Origin: Marinobacterium mangrovicola
GTDB taxonomy: Bacteria; Pseudomonadota; Gammaproteobacteria; Pseudomonadales; Balneatricaceae
Length of the DNA stretch: 64,000 bases
Direction of reading: 5' to 3'
Assembly (NCBI RefSeq): GCF_004339595.1
Contig: NZ_SMFU01000009.1
Location: 186,001-250,000 of the forward strand
In this document: positions 16,969-31,930 of the stretch, one piece after another
Layout: the number at the start of each line of letters is the position of its first letter
How positions within the stretch are numbered: the first letter of the stretch is position 1
Position numbers and translations under genes: made by a program
Notes under the pieces: model-generated
The model's database searches: none
Told to the model about the DNA's origin: nothing
Seen by the model: only the letters and a program-made list of their open reading frames with translations

Positions 16969-17203
16969 CAGCGAGAAATAACACCGGACCGCAACAGCAA
17001 CATGCATCCACCGGCTGCAGCCTTAAGCATAGACTCGCGACACTCTGATCTCCGCAAGCTACGCCAAGTTCCTCCCAAAACCGTCCGGCCACAACAGGTC
17101 CGGTCAAAACAGGAGACACGCTCCCTGATGATACATTTCATGAACCAGCGCGGGGCAAGAACTCTTTGTTACAACAGAACGTCTCTCCACACCCCTCAAG
17201 ATA

Positions 17204-17220
17204 CTGTGCATAGTGCACAG
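17204..17220. promoter_or_regulatory. Perfect 7-3-7 palindromic operator upstream of codB
   Basis: CTGTGCA-TAG-TGCACAG is a perfect inverted repeat. An identical half-site pair with another 3-nt spacer occurs at 21313-21329. Both start exactly 81 bp before a sigma-54-type -24 element. The position, about 90-105 bp before the predicted transcription start, is that of an enhancer-type activator site. Confidence 0.75.
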
Positions 17221-17284
17221 ATTATTGACGTCACCCTTGCCGAAATCGACAATCGCGCGCAACCTTTGCCACCGCTCCAAATAA

Positions 17285-17300
17285 TGGAACGAGCCTTGCT
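17285..17300 (+). promoter_or_regulatory. Sigma-54 (-24/-12) promoter of codB-pucR-codA
   Basis: TGGAACGAGCCTTGCT matches TGGCACG-N4-TTGCW at all defined positions except one, with correct GG-to-GC spacing. Predicted start of transcription is near 17311, about 40 nt before the codB ATG. Confidence 0.7.
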
Positions 17301-17351
17301 TCGTGCGTGGTGTAGAAAAGGACAACTCTAATCATTCATGCGGAGCACGCT

Positions 17352-18608
17352 ATGGAAAACTCAGATTACCCATTGAGCGAAGTGCCCAACAGCGAACGCA
17401 AAGGGCTGCTCTCCACCTCTGTTGTACTGCTCGGCTTTACCTTTTTCACCGCCACCATGTGGGCGGGTGGATCACTCGGCACCGCCTTCGACTTCGGCGA
17501 GCTGATGCTGGTGATCCTGATCGGCAACCTACTGCTGGGCGCCTATGCGGCGGGTCTGGCCTATATCGCCTGCAAAAGCGGGCTGAATTCGGTGCTGATG
17601 GGGCGCTTCTGCTTCGGCGAGATCGGTAGCAAGCTGTCCGACTTCGTCCTCGGTTTCACCCAGATCGGCTGGTACGCCTGGGGTACAGCGACCATCGCCG
17701 TGGTACTGGTAAAAACCACCGGCATGCCAGAATCCCTCGAAATTCCGCTGATGATTCTGTTCGGCATGGCGTTTTGCATCACCGCCATGATCGGCTTTAA
17801 AGGTCTGGATCTGCTGTCGCGCTTTGCCGTGCCGGCGATGATGCTGTTTATCCTGATCAGCCTCTACACCGGCATGGTCGATGTGGGCGGCGTCTCCGGC
17901 CTGCTCGGCAAGAGCCCGGCTGAAAGCATGAGTTTTGCCGCCGCCATCACCGTGGTGATCGGTACCTTTATCAGCGGCGGCACCCAGGCCACCAACTGGA
18001 GCCGCTTTGCGAAAACGCCCAAGATCGCCGTGATCGCTACTCTGGCTGCATTCTTCGTCGGCAACGGCCTGATGGTGCTGACCGGTGCACTGGGCGCAAT
18101 GATCTACCACCAGGCGGATATCGTCGATGTGATGCTGGCTCAGGGCTTTGTGGTTCTCGCTGTGCTGATGCTGTTCCTCAACATCTGGACCACCCAGGAC
18201 AACACCATCTACAACTTCGCTGTCGCTGGCTGTAACCTGCTGCGTACCGACAAGCGCAAGGTGGTTACCGTGGCCGGCGCCGCTATTGGCACCGTGCTGG
18301 CTGTCGGTGGCATGTACAACCTGCTGATTCCCTTCCTGGTATTACTCGGTACCTTCATTCCGCCCATCGGCGGCGTGATCATGGCGGACTTCTGGGTGAA
18401 CCATAAGGGCAAGTATCCGAAACTCGCCGATGTGAGTCTGCCGGCGTTTAACTGGATTGGTCTGGGTAGCTACGTAGTGGGTTCCGCCGCGGCTTACTTC
18501 TCGCCGGTGCTGCCGCCGCTGGTGGGCGTAGTCGTTGCCGCGCTCTGCTACAGCGTGCTAGTCAAAATGCCATTCGCCAGCCCTGCGCTGGACCCGGCGG
18601 AAGGTTGA
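17352..18608 (+). CDS. codB: Cytosine/nucleobase permease CodB (NCS1 family)
   Basis: This 418-residue NCS1-family symporter has 12 hydrophobic segments and starts like CodB (PLSEVPNSERKGLLSTSVVLLGFTFF). SGGTQATNWSRFAKTPKIA near residue 210 and VIMADFWVNHKGKYPKL near 340-357 are family segments. It imports cytosine or a related pyrimidine base with a cation. It is the first gene of codB-pucR-codA, which sits behind a sigma-54-type promoter and a 7-3-7 palindrome. The SD is GCGGAG. Substrate could extend to 5-methylcytosine, given the deaminase variant (inference). Confidence 0.93.
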   Translation: MENSDYPLSEVPNSERKGLLSTSVVLLGFTFFTATMWAGGSLGTAFDFGELMLVILIGNLLLGAYAAGLAYIACKSGLNSVLMGRFCFGEIGSKLSDFVLGFTQIGWYAWGTATIAVVLVKTTGMPESLEIPLMILFGMAFCITAMIGFKGLDLLSRFAVPAMMLFILISLYTGMVDVGGVSGLLGKSPAESMSFAAAITVVIGTFISGGTQATNWSRFAKTPKIAVIATLAAFFVGNGLMVLTGALGAMIYHQADIVDVMLAQGFVVLAVLMLFLNIWTTQDNTIYNFAVAGCNLLRTDKRKVVTVAGAAIGTVLAVGGMYNLLIPFLVLLGTFIPPIGGVIMADFWVNHKGKYPKLADVSLPAFNWIGLGSYVVGSAAAYFSPVLPPLVGVVVAALCYSVLVKMPFASPALDPAEG

Positions 18609-18629
18609 TATCGCTGATATGGCATTGAT

Positions 18630-19883
18630 ATGGGAATAAGCTGCGCCGATATACCGCGCCTGCCCGGCCTGGAAGAGATTCGCTTCCGGGCCGGTCTGCA
18701 GGGCGGCAACCGACCTGTCCGCTGGCCCTATGTGGCCGAGAACGACTGCATCGCTCCCTGGGTTCGGGGCGGCGAGCTGGTGTTCGTCACCGGTATCAAC
18801 CTGCCGCGCTCGGAAGCCAACCTGAAGCAATTGGTGCATGAGGCAGTCGAGCATCAGGTCGCGGGACTGGTGATCCTCACCGGCCCCGAATTTATCCGCG
18901 AGATTCCCGCTGGCGTGCTGGAGCTCGCCAACTCTTTGAATTTCCCGATTCTGGAACAGCCCTACTCGCTGAAGATGGTGCTGGTCACCGAGGTGATCTC
19001 CAACGCTATCGTGCAGGACAACCTGATCGGCCAGTCCACCAAGCTGTTCCTGACCCGGCTGATCAACGGCTTTGCCGATGCGCCGGAGCTTATCCACCTG
19101 CGCGCCGCAGAGTTGGGCCTTAACGATGACCGCCCCTACGCGGTGGTTTCCGTGCGCATTTCCGGCTTTCACCAGCGCCTGCTCAGTGAAGACAAGGATC
19201 AGCACTGGCAGTTGATCCATCAGCGTAACCAGCTGGAGCAGCAGTTCGGCGAGCTGCTCAAACGACGCGGCATCGACTGGCCGATCCTCGTTCTGGAGCA
19301 GGATCTGATCGCCATCTGGCCCGCCGAGAAGGACCACGCCAGTGCTCTCGCCGACGAGATAGACTCCGCGCTGAATCAGTTGCAGAACCGGATGCCGGAG
19401 CTGCACTTGTACGCCGGCGCCAGCGATCTGCAGCCGGGCCTGAGCCAACTGTCATCTGCCGTGGAACAGTCGCGCCAGGCGGTGCAGTTCGCCGTGCAGC
19501 ACGGTGGCCAGCGGCTGTTTTTCTACGATCAGCTGGGCATCGCCCGGCTGTTCGCAGCGATCCCCCAGCGCAACCTGCTGGCCCAGTTTTGCCAGCAGCA
19601 GCTCGGCAGTCTCTGCTTCGCCCGCGACGACCAGTCGCTGATGCTGAAAGAGACCCTGACCCAGTACCTGAATCTGTTCGGCAACCAGCAGCAGACCGCC
19701 GAGAGCCTGGGTATTCACCGCAACACCCTCAGACACCGACTGAAACGGATAGAGCAGTTGATCGGCCACCGCCTGGGCGATGCCTTCGTGCGGCTCAACC
19801 TGCAGAACGCCCTGCTGATCGAGCAGATCCTGTTTCAGCACCACAATATCGACAGCCAGCTCCCCACGCTGGGAGATCACTGA
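18630..19883 (+). CDS. PucR-family transcriptional regulator
   Basis: This 417-residue protein has the PucR architecture: an N-terminal PucR sensory domain (about residues 5-125, with VRWPYVAEND and GLVILTGPEF), a central GGDEF-like domain (about 140-270), and a C-terminal HTH (ESLGIHRNTLRHRLKRIEQLIG, about 362-383). Family members activate purine or amine catabolic genes in response to metabolites. Encoded between codB and codA, it most likely regulates the nucleobase genes. It lacks an AAA+ domain, so it cannot by itself remodel sigma-54 holoenzyme; its relation to the upstream sigma-54-type promoters is an open question. Confidence 0.9.
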   Translation: MGISCADIPRLPGLEEIRFRAGLQGGNRPVRWPYVAENDCIAPWVRGGELVFVTGINLPRSEANLKQLVHEAVEHQVAGLVILTGPEFIREIPAGVLELANSLNFPILEQPYSLKMVLVTEVISNAIVQDNLIGQSTKLFLTRLINGFADAPELIHLRAAELGLNDDRPYAVVSVRISGFHQRLLSEDKDQHWQLIHQRNQLEQQFGELLKRRGIDWPILVLEQDLIAIWPAEKDHASALADEIDSALNQLQNRMPELHLYAGASDLQPGLSQLSSAVEQSRQAVQFAVQHGGQRLFFYDQLGIARLFAAIPQRNLLAQFCQQQLGSLCFARDDQSLMLKETLTQYLNLFGNQQQTAESLGIHRNTLRHRLKRIEQLIGHRLGDAFVRLNLQNALLIEQILFQHHNIDSQLPTLGDH

Positions 19884-19893
19884 AGAGGTTCCC

Positions 19894-21144
19894 ATGAAAA
19901 TCGTTAACGCCCGTCTGCGACAGAAGCCCCAGCTCCACACCCTGGAGATCACCGCTGGGCTGTTCAGCCAGATCAGCGAGCAGAGCAGCAGCATCGAATG
20001 CCCGGAAGGCGCCATCGACGCCGGCGGCATGCTGCTCTGCGCACCGTTTGTCGAGCCGCATATCCACCTGGATGCGGCGCTGACCGCCGGCGAGCCCAAC
20101 TGGAATCAGAGCGGCACCCTGTTCGAGGGGATCGAGCGCTGGAGCGAGCGCAAGCCGATGCTGAACGAGGCCGATATCCGCCGCCGCGTGCTGGAGACCA
20201 TCGAGCTGCTGGTGCAGAACGGCGTGCAGCATATCCGCACCCACGCGGATATCTCCGACCCGAGCCTCGTCGGTTTGAAAACACTCTGCACCCTGCGTGA
20301 CGAGCTGAAGGACAAGATCGACCTGCAGGTGGTGGCCTTCCCCCAGGACGGGCTGCTCTCCTTCCCCAACGGACTGCAGTTGATGGAGGAGGCGCTGGAG
20401 TTCGGCGCCGATGTGGTAGGTGGTATTCCGCACTTTGAATACACCCGCGATCTGGGTGTGGAATCGATGAAAACTGTGATCGAGCTGGCGAAGAAGTATG
20501 ATCGCCTGGTCGATGTGCACTGTGATGAGATCGACGATCCCAACTCCCGCTTCCTTGAGGTGCTGGCCTGCGAGGCGCTGTTCAACGAGCTGGGTTCGCG
20601 CGTCACCGCCAGCCACACCACGGCGATGCACTCCTACGACAACGCTTACTGCTCCAAGCTATTCCGGCTGCTGAAGAACTCCGGCATCAACTTTATCTCC
20701 TGCCCCACCGAGAGCATCCACCTGCAGGGCCGTTTCGACACCTATCCGAAACGCCGCGGCCTGACCCGGGTGAAAGAGCTGCGCGAAGCCGGCATCAACG
20801 TCTGCTTCGCCGAGGATTCGATCTTCGATCCCTGGTATTCCCTGGGCAACGGCAAGCTGCTGCGCAGCCTGGATTTCGGCCTGCATATCTGCCAGATGAT
20901 GGGTTATCGCGACTTCGAGAGCGCGCTGGACCTGATCACCGACAACAGCGCCCGTACCCTGAATATCCAGGATCGCTACGGCATCGAAACCGGCAAGCCG
21001 GGCAACTTTATCCTGCTCGACGGTGAAGACGACTACAGCGTGCTGCGCAAACAGGGCGACGTGCTGCTGTCGGTGCGCCTGGGCGAAGTCATCATGCAGC
21101 GCGAACCTGCTCGAGTGACCAGCGCTCGCTATATTCAGGACTGA
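19894..21144 (+). CDS. codA: Cytosine deaminase family enzyme, Asp314-to-Ser variant (possible 5-methylcytosine deaminase)
   Basis: This 416-residue amidohydrolase aligns with E. coli CodA end to end: metal-binding H56-x-H58 in EPHIHLD, AFPQ (substrate glutamine) near 149-152, HCDEIDD near 209-215, ASHTTAMHSY near 236-245, and catalytic D308. At the residue after this Asp, E. coli has Asp314 (GHDD) but this protein has Ser309 (AEDS). From memory, changes at Asp314, including Ser, alter preference toward 5-substituted cytosines, and natural bacterial 5-methylcytosine deaminases exist in this branch. The product would be uracil or thymine plus ammonia. It starts 10 bp after pucR with SD GAGG. 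Confidence 0.92.
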   Translation: MKIVNARLRQKPQLHTLEITAGLFSQISEQSSSIECPEGAIDAGGMLLCAPFVEPHIHLDAALTAGEPNWNQSGTLFEGIERWSERKPMLNEADIRRRVLETIELLVQNGVQHIRTHADISDPSLVGLKTLCTLRDELKDKIDLQVVAFPQDGLLSFPNGLQLMEEALEFGADVVGGIPHFEYTRDLGVESMKTVIELAKKYDRLVDVHCDEIDDPNSRFLEVLACEALFNELGSRVTASHTTAMHSYDNAYCSKLFRLLKNSGINFISCPTESIHLQGRFDTYPKRRGLTRVKELREAGINVCFAEDSIFDPWYSLGNGKLLRSLDFGLHICQMMGYRDFESALDLITDNSARTLNIQDRYGIETGKPGNFILLDGEDDYSVLRKQGDVLLSVRLGEVIMQREPARVTSARYIQD

Positions 21145-21163
21145 TTAATTCCCAACTACATAA

Positions 21164-21192
21164 GCGGGCCGGAGTGCACAACGCCGGCCTGC
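21164..21192 (+). terminator. Hairpin after codA
   Basis: A GC-rich stem (GCGGGCCGG against CCGGCCTGC, one G-T pair) with an 11-nt loop follows the codA stop. It lacks a T-run, so it may be a weak or Rho-assisted terminator. The loop contains a TGCACA half-site. Confidence 0.5.
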
Positions 21193-21206
21193 TCCCGACC
21201 TTACCA

Positions 21207-21223
21207 TGCACCATCTCAGTGCA
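21207..21223. promoter_or_regulatory. Candidate NtrC-type site
   Basis: TGCACCATCTCAGTGCA fits TGCAC-N7-GTGCA, the dyad spacing of NtrC (nitrogen regulator I) sites, with one deviation from TGCACC-N5-GGTGCA. It lies about 187 bp upstream of the sigma-54-type -24 element at 21394, an acceptable enhancer distance. Confidence 0.45.
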
Positions 21224-21312
21224 ATCCCATATTTATCAACACCCGTCCCCTTTTCAGCCCTGAATAATCCTTAATCAGCCGCTCCCCGTTCTGCTGAGAA
21301 AAAACAAAAAAA

Positions 21313-21329
21313 CTGTGCAACCTGCACAG
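21313..21329. promoter_or_regulatory. Perfect 7-3-7 palindromic operator upstream of the oxygenase-bmp unit
   Basis: CTGTGCA-ACC-TGCACAG has the same half-sites and spacing as the site at 17204, again starting 81 bp before a -24/-12 promoter. A further half-site TGCACAG with a degraded left arm is at 21459-21465, downstream of the predicted start. Confidence 0.75.
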
Positions 21330-21393
21330 AATTCCATAACAAAGACTGTTCAATCCAAACCATCCTACTTTTCCCGCCACCGCCCCATTCAGT

Positions 21394-21409
21394 TGGTATG
21401 CACCTTGCT
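21394..21409 (+). promoter_or_regulatory. Sigma-54 (-24/-12) promoter of the oxygenase-bmp-ABC unit
   Basis: TGGTATGCACCTTGCT fits YTGGYACR-N4-TTGCW with one mismatch and exact spacing, and the preceding base is T as in the consensus. Predicted transcription start is near 21420, leaving a leader of about 94 nt before the ATG at 21514. Confidence 0.68.
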
Positions 21410-21513
21410 CTAAGAGCTTCAACAGCAACGCCGCTGACCGCATATATAGCGAACAAAGTGCACAGTCAGCCAGCAGAACAGCACGAACCCAGGACTAAAC
21501 CCAGGAAAGAACC

Positions 21514-22554
21514 ATGGCCACAGTGATCACCGGCAACGGCCCCCGTGCCGTCAACAGCAACGACCTGGACAGCCTGACTGTCCCCTTCTCTTCCATTCCG
21601 GTTATCGACTTTTCCGCCATGTATTCCGATGATGCCGACGCCCGCCGTGCCGTGGGCGCAGAAGTGCGCAAGGCCTGCACAGAGGTAGGTTTTTTCTACG
21701 CCAAGGGCCACGGCGTGCCGCAGCAGGTGATCGATAACACCTTCAAGGCCGCACACCAGTTTTTCGATCTGCCGCTGGAAGAAAAAGTGAAGGTCGACAT
21801 CTCCAAGTCACCGAACCTGCGCGGCTACACTGGCCTTCTTGAGGAGAACACCAACGTTGAGGGCCTCGGCGATGTGCACGAAGGTTTCGATATCGCCCTG
21901 GATCTTCCTGAAAACGATCCCGACGTGATCGCCGGCAAGTTCGGTTACGGTCCGAACCAGTGGCCGGAAAACCTGCCCGGCTTCAAGGAAGCACTGCTCG
22001 CCTACCAGAGCGAGGTACTGGACTTCGGCCAGAAGATCTTCGCCGCCTTTGCCCTGGCACTGGAGCTGGAGGAAGATTTCTTCGTACCCCTGAGCACCAA
22101 GCCAATGGCTCAGATGCGCGTGCTCTCCTACCCGAGCCAGGATGGCCCTATCGACGAGCGCCAGATCGGCATCGGCCCGCACTCAGATTACGAATGCTTC
22201 ACCGTACTCTGCACCGATGAAACACCTTCACTGCAGGTGCTGAACTGCGCCGGCGAGTGGATTCAGGCTCCGCCTATCCCCGGCGCGTTTATCGTCAACG
22301 TGGGGGATCTGATGGCCCGCTGGACCAACGGCTACTTCGCCTCGACGCTGCACCGCGCCATCAACAAATCCGGCAAGGAACGCTTCTCTATTCCGTTTTT
22401 CTACGGCACCAACTCGGACGCCCTGATCGAGGTTCTGCCCTCCTGCCAGAACGAAGACTGGCCGCCGCAGTTCGAGCCGATCAAAACCAGCGATTACATC
22501 CAATCGCGCTTTAACGAGACCTACGCCCATCGCGCTGCGGAGGAGAAGTCCTGA
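21514..22554 (+). CDS. Isopenicillin N synthase-family 2-oxoglutarate/Fe(II) oxygenase
   Basis: This 346-residue double-stranded beta-helix oxygenase has a DIOX_N domain (PVIDFSAMYSD... EVGFFYAKGHGVPQQV) and a 2OG-FeII domain. The iron triad H223-x-D225 (PHSDYE) and H280 (STLHRAI) and the 2-oxoglutarate-binding R290-x-S292 (RFSIPFF) are all present, so it should be an active dioxygenase. This family includes fungal thymine-7-hydroxylase. Its place between a cytosine deaminase variant and a nucleoside-type ABC importer suggests a nucleobase substrate, for example thymine (inference). The SD is AGGAAAG. The substrate could instead be a purine, an alkaloid or another small molecule. Confidence 0.9.
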   Translation: MATVITGNGPRAVNSNDLDSLTVPFSSIPVIDFSAMYSDDADARRAVGAEVRKACTEVGFFYAKGHGVPQQVIDNTFKAAHQFFDLPLEEKVKVDISKSPNLRGYTGLLEENTNVEGLGDVHEGFDIALDLPENDPDVIAGKFGYGPNQWPENLPGFKEALLAYQSEVLDFGQKIFAAFALALELEEDFFVPLSTKPMAQMRVLSYPSQDGPIDERQIGIGPHSDYECFTVLCTDETPSLQVLNCAGEWIQAPPIPGAFIVNVGDLMARWTNGYFASTLHRAINKSGKERFSIPFFYGTNSDALIEVLPSCQNEDWPPQFEPIKTSDYIQSRFNETYAHRAAEEKS

Positions 22555-22603
22555 AGGACCTCTTCCCGCCGAGCCCGTTACCTTGACCCGGAGAACTCAA
22601 CCG

Positions 22604-23710
22604 ATGCGTAACCCGATCACACTTTCCACATTGTCCCTGGCCGTCTCCCTGACCGCCTCCAGCGTTTTAATGGCCAACGTTGCTCAGGCGAAACCCTTCC
22701 AGCTGGAAGGCGAACCGAAGATCGCCTTTATCTACGGCGCCACTGCCCGCGATGGCGGCTGGAATGAAGCGATCGACAACGCCCGCCAGATCGTCGCCGA
22801 TGAACTGGGTTACCCGATCGCCGTGGCCGAGAGTATTCCCGAAGATGCCAGCGCACTGAAAAACGCCATCGATCTCTATGTACAGCGCGGCTTTAACATC
22901 ATCGTCGGCACAACCTACGGCTACTCCGACGGCATCGCCCAGGCGGCTGAAAAATATCCGAACGTGGCGTTCGTGAACGCTTCCGGCACCACCAACGCCG
23001 ACAACCTGGAAAGCTTCTACGCCCGCACCTACGAGGCCTGGTACCTGGCTGGCATCGCTGCAGGCGGAGTGGCCGAAGGCGATAAACTGGGCATGCTGGC
23101 CGGCTTCCCGGTGAGCGTTGTTAACTGGGATATCAATAGTTTTGCCCGCGGCGCTCAGGTCAGCAATCCGGATGCCTCCGTCTCCGTGCTCTACACCAAC
23201 TCCTGGTGGGATCCGGTGAAAGAGGGCCAGGCCGCGAAATCACTGCTTGAGCAGGGCGCCGATGTCATTGCCAACAACCTCTCCTCCGCTGCGCCGTTTA
23301 CCGAAGCGGAAAAAGCGGACAAATACAGCGTCGGCTTCCAGCTGGATATGAGCGCCAATGCGCCCAAGGGCCACCTGACCTCGGTCGCGTTCCACTGGGA
23401 CAAGTATCTGGTCCCGACCATCAAGGCGATCGCCGAAGGTACCTGGGAACCCTCTGAATACGGCGCCTTCCCGGGCCTGGCCGAAGGTGTGGTAGATATT
23501 ACCCCGCTGCCGGACAGCGTTCCTGAAGCGGTTAAGCAGACCATCGCAGAGAAACGTGCCGCCATCATCGCTGGTGAACTGACGCCGTTCGATGGCCCGG
23601 TTCTGGCTCAGGATGGCACCGAGAAACTGCCTGTTGGCGAATCTCTCAGCGATGAGCAGCTCTGGGCGATGGATTACCTGGTTCAGGGTACGGTCGGGGG
23701 CGGTCAATGA
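22604..23710 (+). CDS. BMP-family ABC transporter substrate-binding protein (nucleoside/nucleobase-type)
   Basis: This 368-residue periplasmic receptor of the basic membrane protein/PnrA family has a signal peptide ending near NVAQA. Family segments: KIAFIYGATARDGGWNEA, IIVGTTYGYSDGIAQAAEKYPNVAFVNASG, and a WWDPVKEGQAAKSLLEQGADVI block. Relatives bind purine nucleosides and related bases. I chose ATG 22604 over the in-frame TTG at 22583 because of the GGAG 10 bp upstream and the better signal peptide. The stop overlaps the ATPase start (ATGA). Confidence 0.92.
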   Translation: MRNPITLSTLSLAVSLTASSVLMANVAQAKPFQLEGEPKIAFIYGATARDGGWNEAIDNARQIVADELGYPIAVAESIPEDASALKNAIDLYVQRGFNIIVGTTYGYSDGIAQAAEKYPNVAFVNASGTTNADNLESFYARTYEAWYLAGIAAGGVAEGDKLGMLAGFPVSVVNWDINSFARGAQVSNPDASVSVLYTNSWWDPVKEGQAAKSLLEQGADVIANNLSSAAPFTEAEKADKYSVGFQLDMSANAPKGHLTSVAFHWDKYLVPTIKAIAEGTWEPSEYGAFPGLAEGVVDITPLPDSVPEAVKQTIAEKRAAIIAGELTPFDGPVLAQDGTEKLPVGESLSDEQLWAMDYLVQGTVGGGQ

Positions 23711-25242
23711 GTCAGGGTTCCCCCCTGCTGACACTGAGCGCCATCGATAAGAGCTTTGATATTCACCGGGTGCTGAACTCGGTCTCCTTCGAACTTGCCA
23801 GGGGAGAGGTGCACGCCCTCCTTGGCGAGAACGGGGCGGGCAAATCCACCCTGATGAATATCCTGATCGGCGTCTACAGTGCCGATGCCGGCAAGCTGGA
23901 GCTGGAAGGCAAACCGCTGAAGATCAGCAAGCCTTCCGACAGCGCGCGCCAGGGTATCGGCATGGTCCACCAGCATTTTCGTCTGGTGGACCGTCTGACG
24001 TTAACGGAAAACCTGCTGCTGGCTGCCGATGACCATCCACAGCTGAAAAGCCGCGCCGCTGCCCGTGAGGCTCTGCTCAGCACAGCAAAGGAGATCGGCT
24101 TTACGCTGAACCCCGATTGCCAGGTGGGCGAGCTCTCAGTGGCGGAGAAGCAGCGCGCCGAGATCTGCAAGGTTCTGGCGCTGGGCGCCCGCATCCTGAT
24201 TCTCGACGAACCCACCGCCGTACTCACCGACTCCGAAGCCAGCTCCATGCTGGCCGCTATTCGCCGCATGGCGGAATCGGGTCGCAGCATCATCCTGATT
24301 ACCCACAAGCTGCGCGAAGTGGTCGGTTTCAGCCACCGCGTGACTATTATGCGCCGCGGCGAGACCGTGGCAGCGGGTCTGGATACCAGCGATCTCTCAA
24401 TCGAGAAAATCTCCAGCCTGATGATGGGTTCCTCATCGACGAGCCTCAGCCCGGACGGTATCAACTCTAAAAAAGCCCCTGGCAACATACAGGAGCACGG
24501 CCCGGATCTGCTGGCGATCAGCCATCTGAATGCCCGGCGCGATGACGGCGCACCTGCGCTCACCGATGTCAGCCTCAGGGTTAGGGCCGGTGAGATTCTC
24601 GGCCTCGCCGGTGTTGGCGGCAACGGTCAGCATGAGCTGACGGAGCTGCTCAGCGGTATCCGTTCCGCCAGCTCCGGCAGCGTGATGATCGATGGCGCCG
24701 ATGCGCTGGGGCTCTCCCCGCGCCAGCGGCGCAAGCTGGGATTACGCGTTATTCCCGCAGACCGCATGGCCAGCGCGCTGGTGTCCGATCTCAGTATCGC
24801 CGCCAACCTGTCGCTGACCTCCGTGGTCAGCGGCCGCTTCGGACGCCTCTGGCTCAACCGCCGCCGCATACAGCGCGAAGCCCAGGCCAGTATCGAGCAA
24901 CACGAGATCGCTGGCGCCCGCCCTTCTGGCCGCATGGGGCTGCTCTCCGGCGGCAATGCCCAGAAGGTGCTGCTGGCCCGGGAGATCGACAGCGGCATGA
25001 AACTGCTGCTGGCCCATTCGCCGACCCGCGGCCTGGATATCCGCGCCAGCGCCTTGGTGCATCAGCGCCTGCGCGAGGCCGCCGCCAAAGGCGCCGCCTG
25101 CCTGCTGGTCAGCGAGGATGTGGAAGAGATCATGGCGCTGTCTGACCGCATCTGTGTCATCAGCGCCGGAAAAATCATGGGCGAGCTGCCCGGCGACGCC
25201 AGTGCCGCTGATATCGGGAGGCTTATTCTGGGCCATGAGTAG
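23707..25242 (+). CDS. ABC transporter ATP-binding protein (BMP/nucleoside class, two ATPase domains)
   Basis: This 511-residue protein has two fused nucleotide-binding domains. Domain 1: Walker A GENGAGKST near 39-47, LSVAEKQ signature near 143, Walker B ILILDEPT near 164. Domain 2 has the usual degenerate P-loop (GVGGNGQHEL near 302), LSGGNAQK near 416, and LLLAHSPTRGLD near 435. This organisation is typical of sugar/nucleoside importers such as the NupA/YufO class. It overlaps its neighbours by 4 bp (bmp gene) and 8 bp (permease), which shows tight coupling. Confidence 0.95.
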   Translation: MSQGSPLLTLSAIDKSFDIHRVLNSVSFELARGEVHALLGENGAGKSTLMNILIGVYSADAGKLELEGKPLKISKPSDSARQGIGMVHQHFRLVDRLTLTENLLLAADDHPQLKSRAAAREALLSTAKEIGFTLNPDCQVGELSVAEKQRAEICKVLALGARILILDEPTAVLTDSEASSMLAAIRRMAESGRSIILITHKLREVVGFSHRVTIMRRGETVAAGLDTSDLSIEKISSLMMGSSSTSLSPDGINSKKAPGNIQEHGPDLLAISHLNARRDDGAPALTDVSLRVRAGEILGLAGVGGNGQHELTELLSGIRSASSGSVMIDGADALGLSPRQRRKLGLRVIPADRMASALVSDLSIAANLSLTSVVSGRFGRLWLNRRRIQREAQASIEQHEIAGARPSGRMGLLSGGNAQKVLLAREIDSGMKLLLAHSPTRGLDIRASALVHQRLREAAAKGAACLLVSEDVEEIMALSDRICVISAGKIMGELPGDASAADIGRLILGHE

Positions 25243-26326
25243 TTTTAGATTGACCCTTGAGCGCCGCCAGCAAGTCAGCACGCTGCGCTCAACCACCACT
25301 TACATTCTGGGCCTGCTTCTGGGCCTCGGCTTTGGCCTGGCAGTTCTGCTCGCCGCCGGCGCACCCGCCGCCACCCTGCTGGATGACCTGGTGATACAGG
25401 TGTTTTTCAGCTCAATGGGACTGGCGCAGACACTGACCCTGGCAGTTCCGCTAATTCTGGTAGGGCTGGCCGCCACCTCGGCCATGCGACTACGATTCTG
25501 GAACGTGGGCATCGAGGGCCAGCTCTGGCTTGGTGCCATCGGCGCCACGCTGGTGGCACTCAGTGACTTCGGCAGCGAATCACTGCGCCTGCCCACCATG
25601 CTGCTCGCTTCCGCCATAGCCGGCGCCGCCTGGATCGCCGTGCCGCTGATTCTGAAACTCCGCGCCGGCGTGAATGAACTGGTGGCAACCCTGCTGCTCT
25701 CTAACGTGGCTTACCTGCTGCTGCAGCATTTGCTGTTTGGCGCCTGGAAAGATCCGGTGAACAGCTTCCCGGTATCACCACGTTTCGACGACAGCGAGCA
25801 GCTGGCGAGCCTTGGTTTTGGCAACCTGCACTCCGGCATCTATGTAGCGCTCGGCATCACCCTGTTGATGGCGATCCTGGTGCAGAAAAGCCGTACCGGT
25901 TTCTATGTGGATGTAATCGGCCGTAACCGCACCACCGCCCTGGCCACCGGTATTCCGGTGACGGCCACGATCACACTGATGATTCTGCTCTCCGGCGCCC
26001 TGGCGGGGTTGGCGGGTGGTCTGATCGTGACCGGAGTGGAACATCGCCTGACCCAGACCATCGGGATCAACACCACCTTCAGCGGCATCGTTATCGCGTT
26101 TATCGCCCGCTTCAATCCGCTGGCGGTGCTACCAACGGCCATCGTACTGGCGGGTATTTATAACGCCGGTGGCACGTTGAAGGTTTTCTACGGCATTCCC
26201 GATTCAATCGTCGTGCTGATTCAGGGCATCGTGCTGCTGACCCTGCTGATGGTGCAGTTCTTCCGCAGCTACCGCGTATCGCTGATTCGCCAAAGCGCTC
26301 CGCAGTCCAGTCAGCCGTCAACTTAA
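25235..26326 (+). CDS. ABC transporter permease (BMP/nucleoside class), first subunit
   Basis: This 363-residue membrane protein has about nine hydrophobic segments. The start is set at ATG 25235, which overlaps the ATPase stop and has a GGGAGG SD; a longer open frame upstream lies within the ATPase gene. SAMRLRFWNVGIEGQLWLGAIGA near residues 80-102 and GINTTFSGIVIAFIARFNPL near 275-294 are typical of the YufP/RbsC-like family. It forms the channel with the next gene product. Confidence 0.92.
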   Translation: MSSFRLTLERRQQVSTLRSTTTYILGLLLGLGFGLAVLLAAGAPAATLLDDLVIQVFFSSMGLAQTLTLAVPLILVGLAATSAMRLRFWNVGIEGQLWLGAIGATLVALSDFGSESLRLPTMLLASAIAGAAWIAVPLILKLRAGVNELVATLLLSNVAYLLLQHLLFGAWKDPVNSFPVSPRFDDSEQLASLGFGNLHSGIYVALGITLLMAILVQKSRTGFYVDVIGRNRTTALATGIPVTATITLMILLSGALAGLAGGLIVTGVEHRLTQTIGINTTFSGIVIAFIARFNPLAVLPTAIVLAGIYNAGGTLKVFYGIPDSIVVLIQGIVLLTLLMVQFFRSYRVSLIRQSAPQSSQPST

Positions 26327-26417
26327 GGGCATAGAGAGCCCTCAGTTGAAGAGCATAGAAAGCCTTCAGCGTAAGAGCTCAGAAAGCCCGCAGCGTAAGA
26401 GCATAGAAAGTCTATGG
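26327..26417 (+). repeat. 24-bp tandem repeat between permease genes (3.8 units)
   Basis: Units start at 26327, 26351, 26375 and 26399, each 24 bp, sharing GAGCATAGAAAGCC and CAGCGTAA. The last, partial unit runs into the ATG of the next gene (26414). The array fills the whole gap and each unit can encode an 8-residue K-S-I-E-S-L-Q-R-like repeat in one plus frame. Confidence 0.85.
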
Positions 26418-27340
26418 AACAGTTCATCACAAGTTGGCTCGGCAGCACCCCGGCCTTTGCCATCCCCCTGGCACTGGCCAGCATGGGTCTGGTGCTCTGC
26501 GAGCGCGCCGGCGTCCTCAACATGGGTGCCGAGGGCTATATGGCGCTGGGCGCCATGACCGCCGCAGTTCTGACGCTAACCCTCGGCAACCCAGCCATCG
26601 GGATAATCGCGGCCGTCATAGCCGGCGCCGCACTGGCGCTGATTTTCGGCTTTGCGGTGGTGATCATGCGCTGCGAACAGATACTGGCGGGCCTGGCCAC
26701 CATGGCGGTGGGCTTAGGGGTCGCCGGTGTGGTTGGGCGACCCTATGTGCATAAAAGCTTCGAAGGACTGCAGCCGCTGGATATTCCGCTGCTGGACCAG
26801 ATCCCGCTGCTCGGCCGCCTGCTGTTCAATCAGGACATTCTGGTTTATCTGACTGTCCTGATCGGCTTCGGTCTCTGGTTTCTGCTGGAGCGCACCCGCG
26901 CAGGCCTGAAGATCCGCGCCGTGGGTGAAGATCCCGCCAGTGCCGATGTGGCCGGCGTTCAGGTGCAACTGCAGCAGCTGATGGCGATCACCGCCAGCGG
27001 CGCCCTCTGCGGCCTGGCCGGCGCTTACCTGTCGGTGGCCAGCAGCAGCGTCTGGGTGGATAACATGATCGCCGGGCGTGGCTGGATCGCTCTCGCATTG
27101 GTGGTGTTCGCCCGCTGGGATCCCCTCAAGGCGCTGGCCGGTGCCTTTCTGTTTGGTGCTATTGAGGCCCTGCTGCCGCGTCTGCAGGCGATCGGCGTAC
27201 CCGCTCCGATCTACCTGATGAACATGCTTCCCTACCTGTTCACCATCGCGGTACTGCTGGTCGCCGCCTGGTCCGGCTCTAAGAAAGGCGTGGAACCGGC
27301 AGCGCTCGGTAAGCCCTACGTGCGCCAGGATCGGCACTAA
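26414..27340 (+). CDS. ABC transporter permease (BMP/nucleoside class), second subunit
   Basis: This 308-residue membrane protein has about eight to nine hydrophobic segments. ERAGVLNMGAEGYMALGAMTA near residue 28-50 and MIAGRGWIALALVVFARWDPLKALAGA near 217-243 match the YufQ family. It is the second half of the heterodimeric channel. Unlike the rest of the operon it is separated from the preceding gene by 87 bp of tandem repeat instead of an overlap. No obvious SD is seen except AGAAAG inside the last repeat unit. Confidence 0.93.
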   Translation: MEQFITSWLGSTPAFAIPLALASMGLVLCERAGVLNMGAEGYMALGAMTAAVLTLTLGNPAIGIIAAVIAGAALALIFGFAVVIMRCEQILAGLATMAVGLGVAGVVGRPYVHKSFEGLQPLDIPLLDQIPLLGRLLFNQDILVYLTVLIGFGLWFLLERTRAGLKIRAVGEDPASADVAGVQVQLQQLMAITASGALCGLAGAYLSVASSSVWVDNMIAGRGWIALALVVFARWDPLKALAGAFLFGAIEALLPRLQAIGVPAPIYLMNMLPYLFTIAVLLVAAWSGSKKGVEPAALGKPYVRQDRH

Positions 27341-27639: not shown

Positions 27640-28488
27640 ATGTTTTTCGTTCCTTTTCTGATCATGCTGCGCGAGGGGCTGGAAGCGGCTCTGATCGTCA
27701 GCCTGATCGCCAGCTATCTTTCCCGCACCGGGCGCGGCCACTGGATCGGCGCCATCTGGGGTGGCGCCATAGCGGCGGCCCTGCTCTGCTTTGCCATCGG
27801 CTGGGGCATCAACGAAACCACCGGTGAATTCCCGCAGAAACAGCAGGAGCTGTTTGAGGGCATCGTCGCCCTGGTTGCCGTGGGGATGCTCAGCTACATG
27901 GTGTTCTGGATGCGCAGGGTGGCCGGCAACAGCAAAGAGCAGATGCAGCAGGCGGTAGATCGCGCACTCAGTGGCGGCAGCCAGCGGCGTCAGGCCCTTG
28001 CGCTAGTCCTGATAGTGTTTCTGGCGGTGGCACGGGAAGGGATGGAGTCGGTGTTTTTCCTGCTTGCCGCCTTTCAACAGGACGTGGGCGCGGCAGCGCC
28101 GGCCGGCGCCGTCACAGGGCTGATCACCGCGATAGTGCTCGGTTTTGCCATCTATTTCGGTGGCACCCGTCTGCCGCTGCGGGCATTTTTCCGCTGGAGC
28201 AGCCTGTTCATTATCTTCGTCTCGGCGGGTCTCGCCGCCGGAGCAATCCGAGCTTTCCATGAAGCGGGGATCTGGAATCACTTCCAGGGTATCGCCTTCA
28301 ACCTCAGTCAGGTGCTCTCCACCCACTCGCTGACCGGCACCCTGCTGGAAGGCCTGCTCGGTTACCAGGAGACACCGAGTGTCAGCGAGGTCGGTGCATA
28401 CCTGCTCTACCTGATTCCAGCCCTGCTGCTGTTTTTCCGTGAACCCCGTCAAAGCCAACCCGCGGGAGCCAAGCCGCTCTCCTCCTGA
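27640..28488 (+). CDS. efeU: Ferrous iron permease EfeU (FTR1 family)
   Basis: This 282-residue protein has seven hydrophobic segments. It carries both REGxE iron motifs of the oxidase-dependent iron transporter family: R11-E-G-L-E15 in the first helix and REGME near residue 129 in the fourth. It moves iron across the inner membrane with EfeO and EfeB, both encoded downstream on the same strand. A Fur box precedes it. Length and topology are normal for EfeU. Confidence 0.95.
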   Translation: MFFVPFLIMLREGLEAALIVSLIASYLSRTGRGHWIGAIWGGAIAAALLCFAIGWGINETTGEFPQKQQELFEGIVALVAVGMLSYMVFWMRRVAGNSKEQMQQAVDRALSGGSQRRQALALVLIVFLAVAREGMESVFFLLAAFQQDVGAAAPAGAVTGLITAIVLGFAIYFGGTRLPLRAFFRWSSLFIIFVSAGLAAGAIRAFHEAGIWNHFQGIAFNLSQVLSTHSLTGTLLEGLLGYQETPSVSEVGAYLLYLIPALLLFFREPRQSQPAGAKPLSS

Positions 28489-28546
28489 GTTCACTTAGTT
28501 AAGGGTTGCGAGCCGGCATCGCCGCGCCAACCCAGAAGGATTACGC

Positions 28547-29365
28547 ATGAACAAGACACTGATCAGCCTTTCCCTGGCCGCCGCTTTGTCTTCATCGGTA
28601 ACGGCCCAGGCCAAAACCAAGCCCGCCGATCTGGTGGCACCGATGACCGACTACAAAATCTATGTCATCGATGAAGTGGCCGCCTATGTCCGCGATACCA
28701 AGGAATTCACCGATGCGGTGAAGGCCGGCAATATCGACCGCGCCAAGGCGCTCTATTCACCGACCCGCATCCACTATGAGCGCATCGAGCCGGTGGCCGA
28801 GCTGTTCTCCGATCTGGATGCGAGCATGGACGCCCGTGAGGACGACTACGCCCAGGGCGCCGAAGACCCGGACTTCAGCGGCTTCCACCGTATCGAGAAG
28901 GCTCTGTGGGCAGATAACTCCACCGATGGCATGGGCAAGTATGCCGACCAGCTCTATAGCGATGCAGTGGAACTGGAGAAACGTCTGACGGCGCTGACCT
29001 TCCCGCCCAGCGCCGTGGTTGGCGGAGCGGCGGGCCTGATCGAAGAGGTGGCCGCGAGCAAGATCAGTGGCGAGGAAGACCGTTACGCCCGCACCGATCT
29101 GTCGGACTTCAAGGCCAACGTTGAAGGCGCCGAGAAGATCGTTGACCTGTTCCATCCTCTGCTGAAGCAGGAGGACGAAGCGCTGGTAGAGAAGATCGAC
29201 AGCAACCTGGCGCGGGTCAACAGCGTACTTGCCAAGTACCGTACCGACGACGGTTTCGAGCCCTACGACAAGCTCACCGACCGCGACCGCCTGGCGCTGA
29301 AAGGTCCGATCACGGTGCTGGCGGAAGACCTCTCGCTGCTGCGCGGCGTACTCGACCTGGACTAA
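28547..29365 (+). CDS. Imelysin-domain iron-uptake lipoprotein-like protein, cupredoxin-less EfeO (EfeM-like)
   Basis: This 272-residue periplasmic protein has a signal peptide (cleavage after VTAQA) followed directly by an EfeO-type M75/imelysin domain: [24 protein letters not shown], then [10 protein letters not shown] carrying the HxxE metal motif. It lacks the N-terminal cupredoxin domain that the next gene has. The two imelysin domains are clearly paralogous. It probably binds Fe(II)/Fe(III) in the periplasm for EfeU. The SD is AGAAGGA. Confidence 0.9.
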
Positions 29366-29434
29366 GCCCACACTTTTCTGTCACTTCAGTCCGGAGAGGC
29401 CTTGCCTCTCCCTCTGCACTCCAACGAGAGCCCT

Positions 29435-30571
29435 ATGCGAAAAATAATATTCTCAAGCGCACCCGCACTCTGCCTGCTGGGCGCAGCAATGATCAACAGC
29501 TCCGCCCAGGCCGCTTCAAATGATGAGGTGATGAAGGTTGAGGTAGCAGTCAGCGACAGCCAGTGCGAGCCGATGCAACTCAGCGTACCGGCCGGCAAGG
29601 TGCAGTTCATCATCCGCAACAAGAGCATGCGCGCACTCGAGTTCGAAATTCTCGACGGCGTCATGGTGGTGGAAGAGCGGGAGAATATCGCACCGGGCTT
29701 TATGCAGAAGATGACGGCCAACCTGGAGCCGGGCGAGTACGACATCACCTGCGGCCTGCTCACCAACCCACGCGGCAAGCTGGTGGTCAACGCCGACGCA
29801 AATGCCGGGCCCTATGAAGTCAGCGCCACCGACCTGGTCGGCCCGCTGGCGGAATACAAGTTTTATGTCAGTCAGCAGACCCGCTCGCTGCTGGAAAACA
29901 CCCAGGCGTTTACCGATGCGATCCGCGCCAAGGACCTGGCAAAGGCAAAAACACTGTACGAACAGGCCCGCGAGCCTTACGAGCGCATAGAGCCGGTGGC
30001 CGAGCTGTTTTCCGATCTGGATGCCAGCATCGATGCCCGCGAGGATGACTTCACCAAAGGTGCGGAAGACCCTGCATTTACCGGCTTCCACCGTATCGAG
30101 TATCTACTCTGGGTGCAGCAGGACGTTGCAGCGGCTGTCCCCTTCGCCGACCAGCTGGATACCGATGTGGCGGACCTGACCGAACGGATTCGCGCCCTGC
30201 CCTTCCCGCCGGAAAAGGTGGTCGGTGGCGCGGCGGCGCTGGTCGAAGAGATCGCCGCCAGCAAGCTCAGTGGTGAAGAGGATCGCTACGCCCATACCGA
30301 CCTGGCGGACTTTCAGGCCAATATCGATGGCGCCAACAAGATTCTGAGCCTGTTCCATCCCCTACTCACCAAGGTGGATGAGCCGCTGACCAAGCGCGTC
30401 GATAGCAATATGCAGCGCGTCGAGTCGACACTTGCGGCCTACCGCAAAGAGGATGGCAGTTTCGCCCCCTACAGTGACCTGTCGGATAGCGACCGTAACG
30501 CGCTGAAGGGTCCGATCACCGCACTGGCGGAAGATCTTTCCCAGCTGCGCGGCAGCCTTGGCCTTAACTAA
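29435..30571 (+). CDS. efeO: Iron uptake protein EfeO (cupredoxin plus imelysin domains)
   Basis: This 378-residue periplasmic protein has a signal peptide ending near AQA (residue 26), an EfeO-type cupredoxin domain (about 30-120, with C-E-P-M near 43 and a Cys near 107 in DITCGL), and a C-terminal M75 domain with [24 protein letters not shown] and GFHRIEYLLW. I chose ATG 29435 over the upstream in-frame TTG at 29402, because the signal peptide then begins normally. It is the standard EfeO partner of EfeU and EfeB; the single-domain paralogue lies immediately upstream. Confidence 0.93.
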   Translation: MRKIIFSSAPALCLLGAAMINSSAQAASNDEVMKVEVAVSDSQCEPMQLSVPAGKVQFIIRNKSMRALEFEILDGVMVVEERENIAPGFMQKMTANLEPGEYDITCGLLTNPRGKLVVNADANAGPYEVSATDLVGPLAEYKFYVSQQTRSLLENTQAFTDAIRAKDLAKAKTLYEQAREPYERIEPVAELFSDLDASIDAREDDFTKGAEDPAFTGFHRIEYLLWVQQDVAAAVPFADQLDTDVADLTERIRALPFPPEKVVGGAAALVEEIAASKLSGEEDRYAHTDLADFQANIDGANKILSLFHPLLTKVDEPLTKRVDSNMQRVESTLAAYRKEDGSFAPYSDLSDSDRNALKGPITALAEDLSQLRGSLGLN

Positions 30572-30598
30572 TCGGTCGCCCGATCAGGAGACAGAGAG

Positions 30599-31930
30599 AT
30601 GAGTTGCCCATTCCACGACCTATTCCGGCGCGAGCGCCGTAAAAACAGCGCTGAGAGTTCACTACCAGAGACTCAGCAGGGACGCCGATCCCTGCTCAAG
30701 GGCATAGGCGCGCTTGGCGGCGCTTTTGCTCTGGGTGGCTCCCACCCGGCCATGGCCGCCGGCAGTGCCGTATCGCAAAGCAAGGAGGATGCGGAGTACA
30801 CCAGCCGTCAGATGACGCAGCCCTTTTATGGCGAACACCAGAGCGGCATTCTCAATCCTCCACCGGCCAGCGCCGCGCTGATCGCCTTCGATGTACTGGC
30901 CTGGGATAAAAACGAGCTGACCCGCCTGTTCAAGATCCTCACCGAGCGCTGCGAGTTTCTGACCCAGGGTGGCGAGCCACCAACCACCGAAGAGAAATTT
31001 CCACCACTGGATTCCGGCATCGTCGGCACCTATGTGCATCCCGATAACCTGACCATCACACTGGCACTGGGCGATTCTCTGTTTGATGAGCGCTTTGGCC
31101 TGGCAGAGGCAAAACCACGGCATCTGCAGCCCATGACCCGCTTCCCTAACGACGCCCTGGACGCGGACTGGTGCCACGGCGATCTGCTGCTGCAGATCTG
31201 CGCCAACTCCCAGGAGACGGTGCTGCACGCCATGCGCGACATCATCAAACACACACCGTCACTGCTCAGCGTGCGCTGGCGCCGGGACGGGTTTATCTCT
31301 AACCATGTGGCCGCTACCGCGGGCAGGGAAACGCCGATCAACCTGCTGGGGTTCAAGGACGGTACGGTTAACCCGAACACCCGCGACCAAGCCGAAGCCA
31401 ACCGCGTGATTCTGGTGTCTGATCAACATGATGAACCGGCCTGGGCACAAGGCGGCAGTTATATGGCCGTGCGCCTGATCCGCTTTTTTGTTGAGCAGTG
31501 GGACCGCACCCCGCTGCAGGAGCAGGAAGCTGTTTTCGGCCGCGACCGTGAAAGCGGCGCTCCGCTGGGGATGAAAAACGAGCACGATATTCCTGACTAC
31601 AGCCAGGATCCGGAAGGCAAGCAGGTGCCGCTGGATTCCCATATGCGCCTGGCCAACCCGCGCACGCCAGGATTTGAGAAGCACCAGCTACTGCGCCGCG
31701 CCTATAACTACTCCGACGCGATCAGCGCCTCGGGGCAGCTGGATATGGGACTGCTGTTTATCTGCTATCAGGCAGATCTGGATGCGGGCTTTATAACGGT
31801 GCAGAAGCGACTCAATGGCGAGCCGCTGGAGGAGTACATCAAGCCGTTCGGCGGCGGCTATTTCTTTGCCCTGCCCGGCGTAAGCAAGCCCGGCGAATAC
31901 TTTGCCCAGGCGTTGCTGGAAAACAGCTAA
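30599..31930 (+). CDS. efeB: Tat-exported Dyp-type peroxidase EfeB
   Basis: This 443-residue heme peroxidase has a twin-arginine signal (RRSLLKG at residues 29-35, followed by a hydrophobic stretch and AMA). GFKDGTVNP near 250 contains the GxxDG distal Asp motif of Dyp peroxidases; [13 protein letters not shown] and [12 protein letters not shown] are further family segments. It acts in the periplasm with EfeUO, oxidising ferrous iron or acting on heme. It ends 6 bp before the convergent vanR stop. The SD is CAGGAGA. Confidence 0.95.

Follow-up and report, generated by a model that had tools for sequence, protein, structure and literature searches.

Sigma-54 promoters that are driven by NtrC and tuned by a second regulator are already known. 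In Escherichia coli, the astC promoter is reportedly of this kind (the work is attributed to Kiupakis and Reitzer in 2002), with ArgR, a pathway regulator that lacks an AAA+ domain, acting as an accessory local factor. The E. coli rut operon is likewise said to combine pyrimidine use, nitrogen control by NtrC, and a second, substrate-linked regulator, the TetR-like RutR. Here we analyze a 64,000-nucleotide stretch of the Marinobacterium mangrovicola genome (contig NZ_SMFU01000009.1, positions 186,001 to 250,000; "the window"), in which two adjacent transcription units share one palindrome upstream of a sigma-54-type -24/-12 element. Unit 1 is codB-pucR-codA, for a cytosine permease, a PucR-family regulator, and cytosine deaminase; unit 2 encodes a 2-oxoglutarate (2OG)-Fe(II) oxygenase and a Bmp-type ATP-binding cassette (ABC) transporter. 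The locus differs from astC in both regulator family and pathway, and from rut in that RutR is TetR-like; what appears to be new is a PucR-family member in such a place.

The described PucR-type proteins PutR, AdeR, PucR, GabR, and CdaR resemble the window protein in domain set, palindromic (here putative) operator, and link to the use of nitrogenous compounds, the operators of PutR and AdeR being inverted repeats of 17 and 24 bp, respectively. In the accessible part of that account, however, none is placed at a sigma-54 promoter, and the GabR target carries -10 and -35 boxes (PMC7652997). Natural sigma-54 enhancers carry sites for further factors, and a protein within the loop changes expression with a period of 10 to 11 bp, according to the available portion of PMC4740811. 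As in the Vibrio qrr and synthetic NtrC enhancers covered there, the loop at the present promoters appears to tolerate changes of 10 to 11 bp, but those systems involve no PucR-family protein, whereas the phased element here is a conserved putative operator. No PucR-family protein at a sigma-54/NtrC promoter was found in literature surveyed by titles and abstract openings, a body from which subscription journals were mostly absent. The arrangement in the window probably represents a three-part enhancer, in which NtrC would drive the sigma-54 promoters and PucR at the palindrome would add substrate control, with one PucR serving both units. The core elements are the following.

17204-17220, no strand assigned: palindrome 1, candidate PucR operator, CTGTGCATAGTGCACAG (exact match and conservation)
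17285-17300, forward strand: codB -24/-12 (sigma-54-type) element, TGGAACGAGCCTTGCT (conserved in relatives)
21313-21329, no strand assigned: palindrome 2, candidate PucR operator, CTGTGCAACCTGCACAG (exact match and conservation)
21394-21409, forward strand: unit 2 -24/-12 (sigma-54-type) element, TGGTATGCACCTTGCT (conserved in relatives)

Two perfect palindromes and two -24/-12 elements had been reported in the initial annotation of this DNA, and all four are present, with 81 bp from start to start in both pairs. The GG/GC spacing is also proper, as both elements read GG-N10-GC and this is kept in relatives; the scan pattern proposed with it, TGG-N9-TTGC, is one base too long, the actual element being TGG-N8-TTGC. 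When the whole genome is scanned (4,979,947 bases in 15 contigs), the exact palindrome is found at these 2 places and nowhere else (reversed control, 0), and so is the shorter TGTGCANNNTGCACA (reversed control, 1). TGG-N8-TTGC alone occurs 10 times in the window, and the -24/-12 elements are therefore meaningful only by virtue of where they lie and of their conservation. The motif and the 81-bp distance are identical within the window; among relatives, the outer C/G pair is not constant, and 81 bp is part of a class of 81 to 83 bp. As for the proposed regulon, two promoters with one site do form one local regulon, and genome uniqueness and conservation make the sharing non-chance; that unit 2, with its 2OG oxygenase and Bmp-type transporter, handles nucleobases is plausible.

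A regulon-wide spread of the palindrome was considered and rejected: among 369 genomes of the class, the palindrome-plus-element pattern occurs in 5, this genome and 4 others, and in all 4 others the palindrome lies inside open frames of at least 311 codons. Three extra occurrences of TGTGCANNNTGCACA (genomes G044, G030, and G103) were also set aside, two falling in long open frames and one in a short frame that we read as MinE-like.

To place the sites in an evolutionary setting, related loci encoding the PucR-family regulator were compared, with the palindrome scored out of 14 against TTGTGCA-N3-TGCACAA and the element out of 8. The palindrome precedes codB in 24/24 promoter rows, with 11 to 14 matches, in a set that includes near-identical genomes. 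The best -24/-12 match lies 81 to 83 bp from the palindrome in 23 of the 24 rows (at one of them, L108, at 83 bp, without a good match) and at 93 bp in the remaining one. Eight rows of 2OG-unit promoters have a spacing of 81 bp in six cases and 69 bp in two (L110 and L111). A PucR domain search across 390 genomes of the order gave 24 above the cut-off, and 16 of 19 further loci that were fetched contain codB-pucR-codA. Shortly 5' of codB, a palindrome of at least 11/14 together with a -24/-12-like element of at least 6/8 is found in 13 of these 16, at 58 to 63 bp in 10 and 81 to 82 bp in 3. At locus L136 (genome G406) the two are 72 bp apart; the codB-pucR-codA genes there adjoin genes that, in our own reading of their first residues, resemble those for reductive pyrimidine breakdown. 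The spacings thus group at about 60, 70, 82, and 93 bp, with about one helical turn between neighboring classes. The null expectation for this grouping, 0.4%, was built on four class centers picked by the analyst and on a set with near-identical genomes collapsed and L108, L254, L255, L258, L263, and L265 left out.

The operator also drifts. In family f21 (L255, L256, and L258) the corresponding place reads TTGTGAACA...TTCACAA, and in family f27 (L254, L257, L259, and L261) it reads TTGTGTA-N3-TGCCTAA; these variants could possibly form a co-evolution series with the PucR helix. Unit 2 has an additional short motif in its leader.

21458-21465, no strand assigned: GTGCACAG half site, 3' of the -24/-12 element, conserved in 2OG-operon promoters

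This half site is kept in 8/8 2OG-unit promoter rows (the window, L086 to L089, L110, L111, and L113), and in L110 it grows into a second palindrome of 11/14; it is possibly an auxiliary operator.

To establish which protein reads the palindrome, CodA orthologues within one family served as natural controls. Fourteen family genomes have an open pucR (401 to 417 codons) and an available codB promoter, and every one carries a palindrome of at least 11/14; none of four codB-codA operons without pucR (G035, G079, G080, and G082) does, their best score being 8 to 9/14 (Fisher p = 0.0003; within genus g12 alone, 4/4 versus 0/3, p = 0.029, uncorrected for descent). The sigma-54 element, in contrast, is perfect (8/8) in three of these four. 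Five codA genes stand without codB and pucR, and none is preceded by the palindrome. In the order-level sample, palindrome plus element occurs in 5/390 genomes, and 5/5 of these encode a PucR-domain protein, versus 24/390 overall (p = 6e-7). Two of the genomes without a codB-linked pucR, G079 and G082, have a 2OG/ABC unit that ends in its own PucR paralogue (36% identity and 32 to 58% in pieces), and the sole TGTGCANNNTGCACA of each genome stands before that unit. A PucR-family gene lies in or beside the regulated unit in both the window and relatives, and the M. mangrovicola genome has one PucR-domain protein. The initial annotation had suggested the site of an undescribed sigma-54 activator; as the palindrome follows the presence of pucR and not that of the sigma-54 element, it is most likely a PucR operator, and we infer that the PucR-family protein is its ligand.

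The same data bear on two other explanations. First, the palindrome could serve a dedicated sigma-54 activator, encoded at an unlinked locus, as its enhancer, with PucR acting elsewhere. With its center near -98, the palindrome stands where enhancers usually do; the sigma-54 activator LuxO has a similarly built site, TTGCA-N3-TGCAA, and 22 strong matches to sigma-54 activators were found in the genome. We nevertheless consider a dedicated activator improbable, as the palindrome disappears along with pucR while the element remains, tblastn with 22 activator queries against 29 codB or 2OG loci gave no activator gene at E 1e-15, and the extra palindromes in PucR-less genomes fall in open frames. 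Second, the sigma-54 elements could be chance matches or relics, and PucR could activate codB from an ordinary promoter. The 10 copies of TGG-N8-TTGC in the window show that such a sequence is not rare, yet this explanation seems very remote: GG-N10-GC with TTGC is retained despite diverged flanks, spaced by whole turns from the palindrome, and the element persists in the three operons noted above that have lost pucR.

NtrC at the palindrome itself was rejected, since the half sites of its consensus face the opposite way. Against solved structures, the window PucR gave a single weak match (9f80_A, E 0.0043). The targets of E. coli CdaR, used as a check for a PucR-type site, gave no match at the 3-bp spacing. 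The E. coli K-12 garP-garD intergenic region (L218) contains TTGAGCA-N2-TGCACAT, 12/14 to the operator arms at a 2-bp spacing; garP and garD are targets of the PucR-related CdaR, and the similarity is no more than a curiosity.

PucR lacks an AAA+ domain and so, as far as its domains tell, could not itself drive a sigma-54 promoter. NtrC is encoded in the genome (TIGR01818, 769.6 bits; cut-off, 558.6), and its consensus, TGCACCA-N3-TGGTGCA, was the basis of all NtrC-like scores, given out of 14. Three matches lie upstream of the palindromes.

17119-17135, no strand assigned: weak second NtrC-like site of unit 1, 9/14 (consensus match)
17141-17157, no strand assigned: NtrC-like site of unit 1, 11/14, 63 bp 5' of the palindrome (consensus match)
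21207-21223, no strand assigned: NtrC-like site of unit 2, 12/14, 106 bp 5' of the palindrome (consensus match)

With at most 2 mismatches, the NtrC consensus occurs at 30 places in the genome, versus 5 for the control, and one site lies 99 bp 5' of a -24/-12 element before a gene read as ntrB, beside ntrC. Across 24 promoters, the summed best NtrC score in the 160 bp 5' of the palindrome is 237, versus 193.2 ± 5.5, and 0/249 permuted consensuses score as high. In three other intervals, further upstream and from the palindrome to -24, the score does not rise above background, being reached by 54, 68, and 120 of the 249 permuted consensuses. Near-identical promoters were collapsed in these sets, L109, with its short upstream region, was left out, and L104 drops from the 160-bp interval in the comparison with the other intervals. 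The enrichment was repeated with 14 fresh promoters (130 versus 112.4 ± 4.2; 0/249 as high), where it is carried by seven short-spacing promoters (0/249). Matches of at least 9 are found at about 54, 63, 84, 95, 105, and 116 bp 5' of the palindrome, a register with a 10.5-bp period (R = 0.81, n = 36). In the three codB operons that lack pucR and keep the element, a 12/14 NtrC-like site lies 113 to 114 bp before the element; it is within the preceding coding frame and so may be partly coincidence. These results suggest that the sigma-54 activator of these promoters is likely NtrC, bound at its own sites further upstream.

Several observations weigh against the assignment of PucR to the palindrome and NtrC to the upstream sites. 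Three of the further loci are weaker, with palindromes of 10/14 at 81 bp (L254), 9/14 at 80 bp (L263), and 9/14 at 69 bp (L265). At L210 (genome G031), pucR is fragmented between codB and codA and the palindrome is a perfect 14/14; recent decay of pucR would explain its being kept. In the PucR recognition helix, HRNT is found throughout the family, and the variable positions differ between proteins whose palindromes are the same, so that a comparison of recognition helices decides nothing. The NtrC enrichment is not significant in f21 (44/249) or f27 (24/249), 3 of the 24 promoters lack an NtrC-like match of at least 9, and 1 of 97 control consensuses is phased equally strongly. Finally, the promoters share descent, and all p-like figures are therefore optimistic.

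In the mechanism that we propose, each promoter would comprise one or more NtrC-like sites, the TTGTGCA-N3-TGCACAA palindrome centered about 98 bp 5' of the predicted start, and the -24/-12 element. NtrC, an ATP-driven activator responding to nitrogen shortage, would bind at about -160 in unit 1 and -205 in unit 2 and contact the sigma-54 polymerase at -24/-12 through DNA looping. PucR, on the palindrome near -98, would sit within this loop on a fixed helix face and make output depend on a nucleobase-type signal as well, for which cytosine or one of its breakdown products is our guess. The single PucR of the window would control both codB-pucR-codA and the oxygenase/transporter unit.

The sites, their conservation and spacing classes, the co-occurrence of palindrome and pucR, and the enrichment and register of NtrC-like sites are read directly from sequence; the pairing of protein and site, the effector, and the sign of PucR action are inferred. 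PucR would be a loop-shaping co-activator, a role that we modestly favor since studied PucR-type regulators are mostly activators. The main alternative is an anti-activator: without inducer, PucR would stiffen the loop that joins NtrC to polymerase, or block it, and substrate would release PucR. Proteins placed within synthetic NtrC enhancer loops do quench expression with a 10- to 11-bp period (PMC4740811), and the GTGCACAG half site, which in unit 2 lies 3' of the start, could give a second contact. The studied family members are, however, described as activators, and B. subtilis PucR as both, in the accessible part of PMC7652997, and we regard the anti-activator as rather unlikely. Going beyond the favored co-activator, a PucR without an AAA+ domain may be an integral, helically phased component of NtrC/sigma-54 enhancers, which would have to lie on one face of the loop, whole turns from both NtrC and polymerase, and would form an AND gate of nitrogen shortage and nucleobase supply. 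We put this forward tentatively; if true, loop geometry itself would carry a second signal at these promoters, which would then form a conserved class of natural enhancers.

The genes of the two units, all on the forward strand, are as follows.

17352-18608, forward strand: codB, NCS1 cytosine permease (NF008241, 596.6 bits; cut-off, 326)
18630-19883, forward strand: PucR-family regulator (domains PucR, GGDEF_2, and HTH_30; AAA+ domain absent)
19894-21144, forward strand: codA, cytosine deaminase (NF006685, 602 bits; cut-off, 483)
21514-22554, forward strand: 2OG-Fe(II) oxygenase, first gene of unit 2 (DIOX_N / 2OG-FeII_Oxy)
22583-23710, forward strand: Bmp/PnrA-like ABC substrate-binding protein (domain match)
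23707-25242, forward strand: ABC transporter ATPase with two ABC domains (domain match)
25118-26326, forward strand: ABC permease 1 (mechanical start of the open reading frame; the real start is probably further inside)
26414-27340, forward strand: ABC permease 2 (open reading frame and domain match)

The PucR protein matches that of M. lutimaris DSM 22012 at 100% identity, and at this locus the two genomes are almost the same. Among solved structures, an ethylene-forming-type enzyme and other 2OG enzymes come closest to the oxygenase; thymine dioxygenase ranks lower. Right after unit 2, at 27640-31930, genes for an FTR1 permease, an imelysin, a cupredoxin-imelysin, and a Dyp-type peroxidase follow consecutively; this row is an EfeU/EfeO/EfeB-like iron uptake cluster.

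If the pairing proposed here is right, it would bring sigma-54 control in Gammaproteobacteria together with a regulator family described chiefly in Gram-positive bacteria and yield a likely operator sequence for the PucR of cytosine operons. Enhancers with spacings of about 60, 70, 82, and 93 bp form a natural series that offers a test bed for looping and helical-phase models. For M. mangrovicola itself, the shared site suggests a functional tie between cytosine use and the uncharacterized unit of 2OG oxygenase and Bmp transporter.

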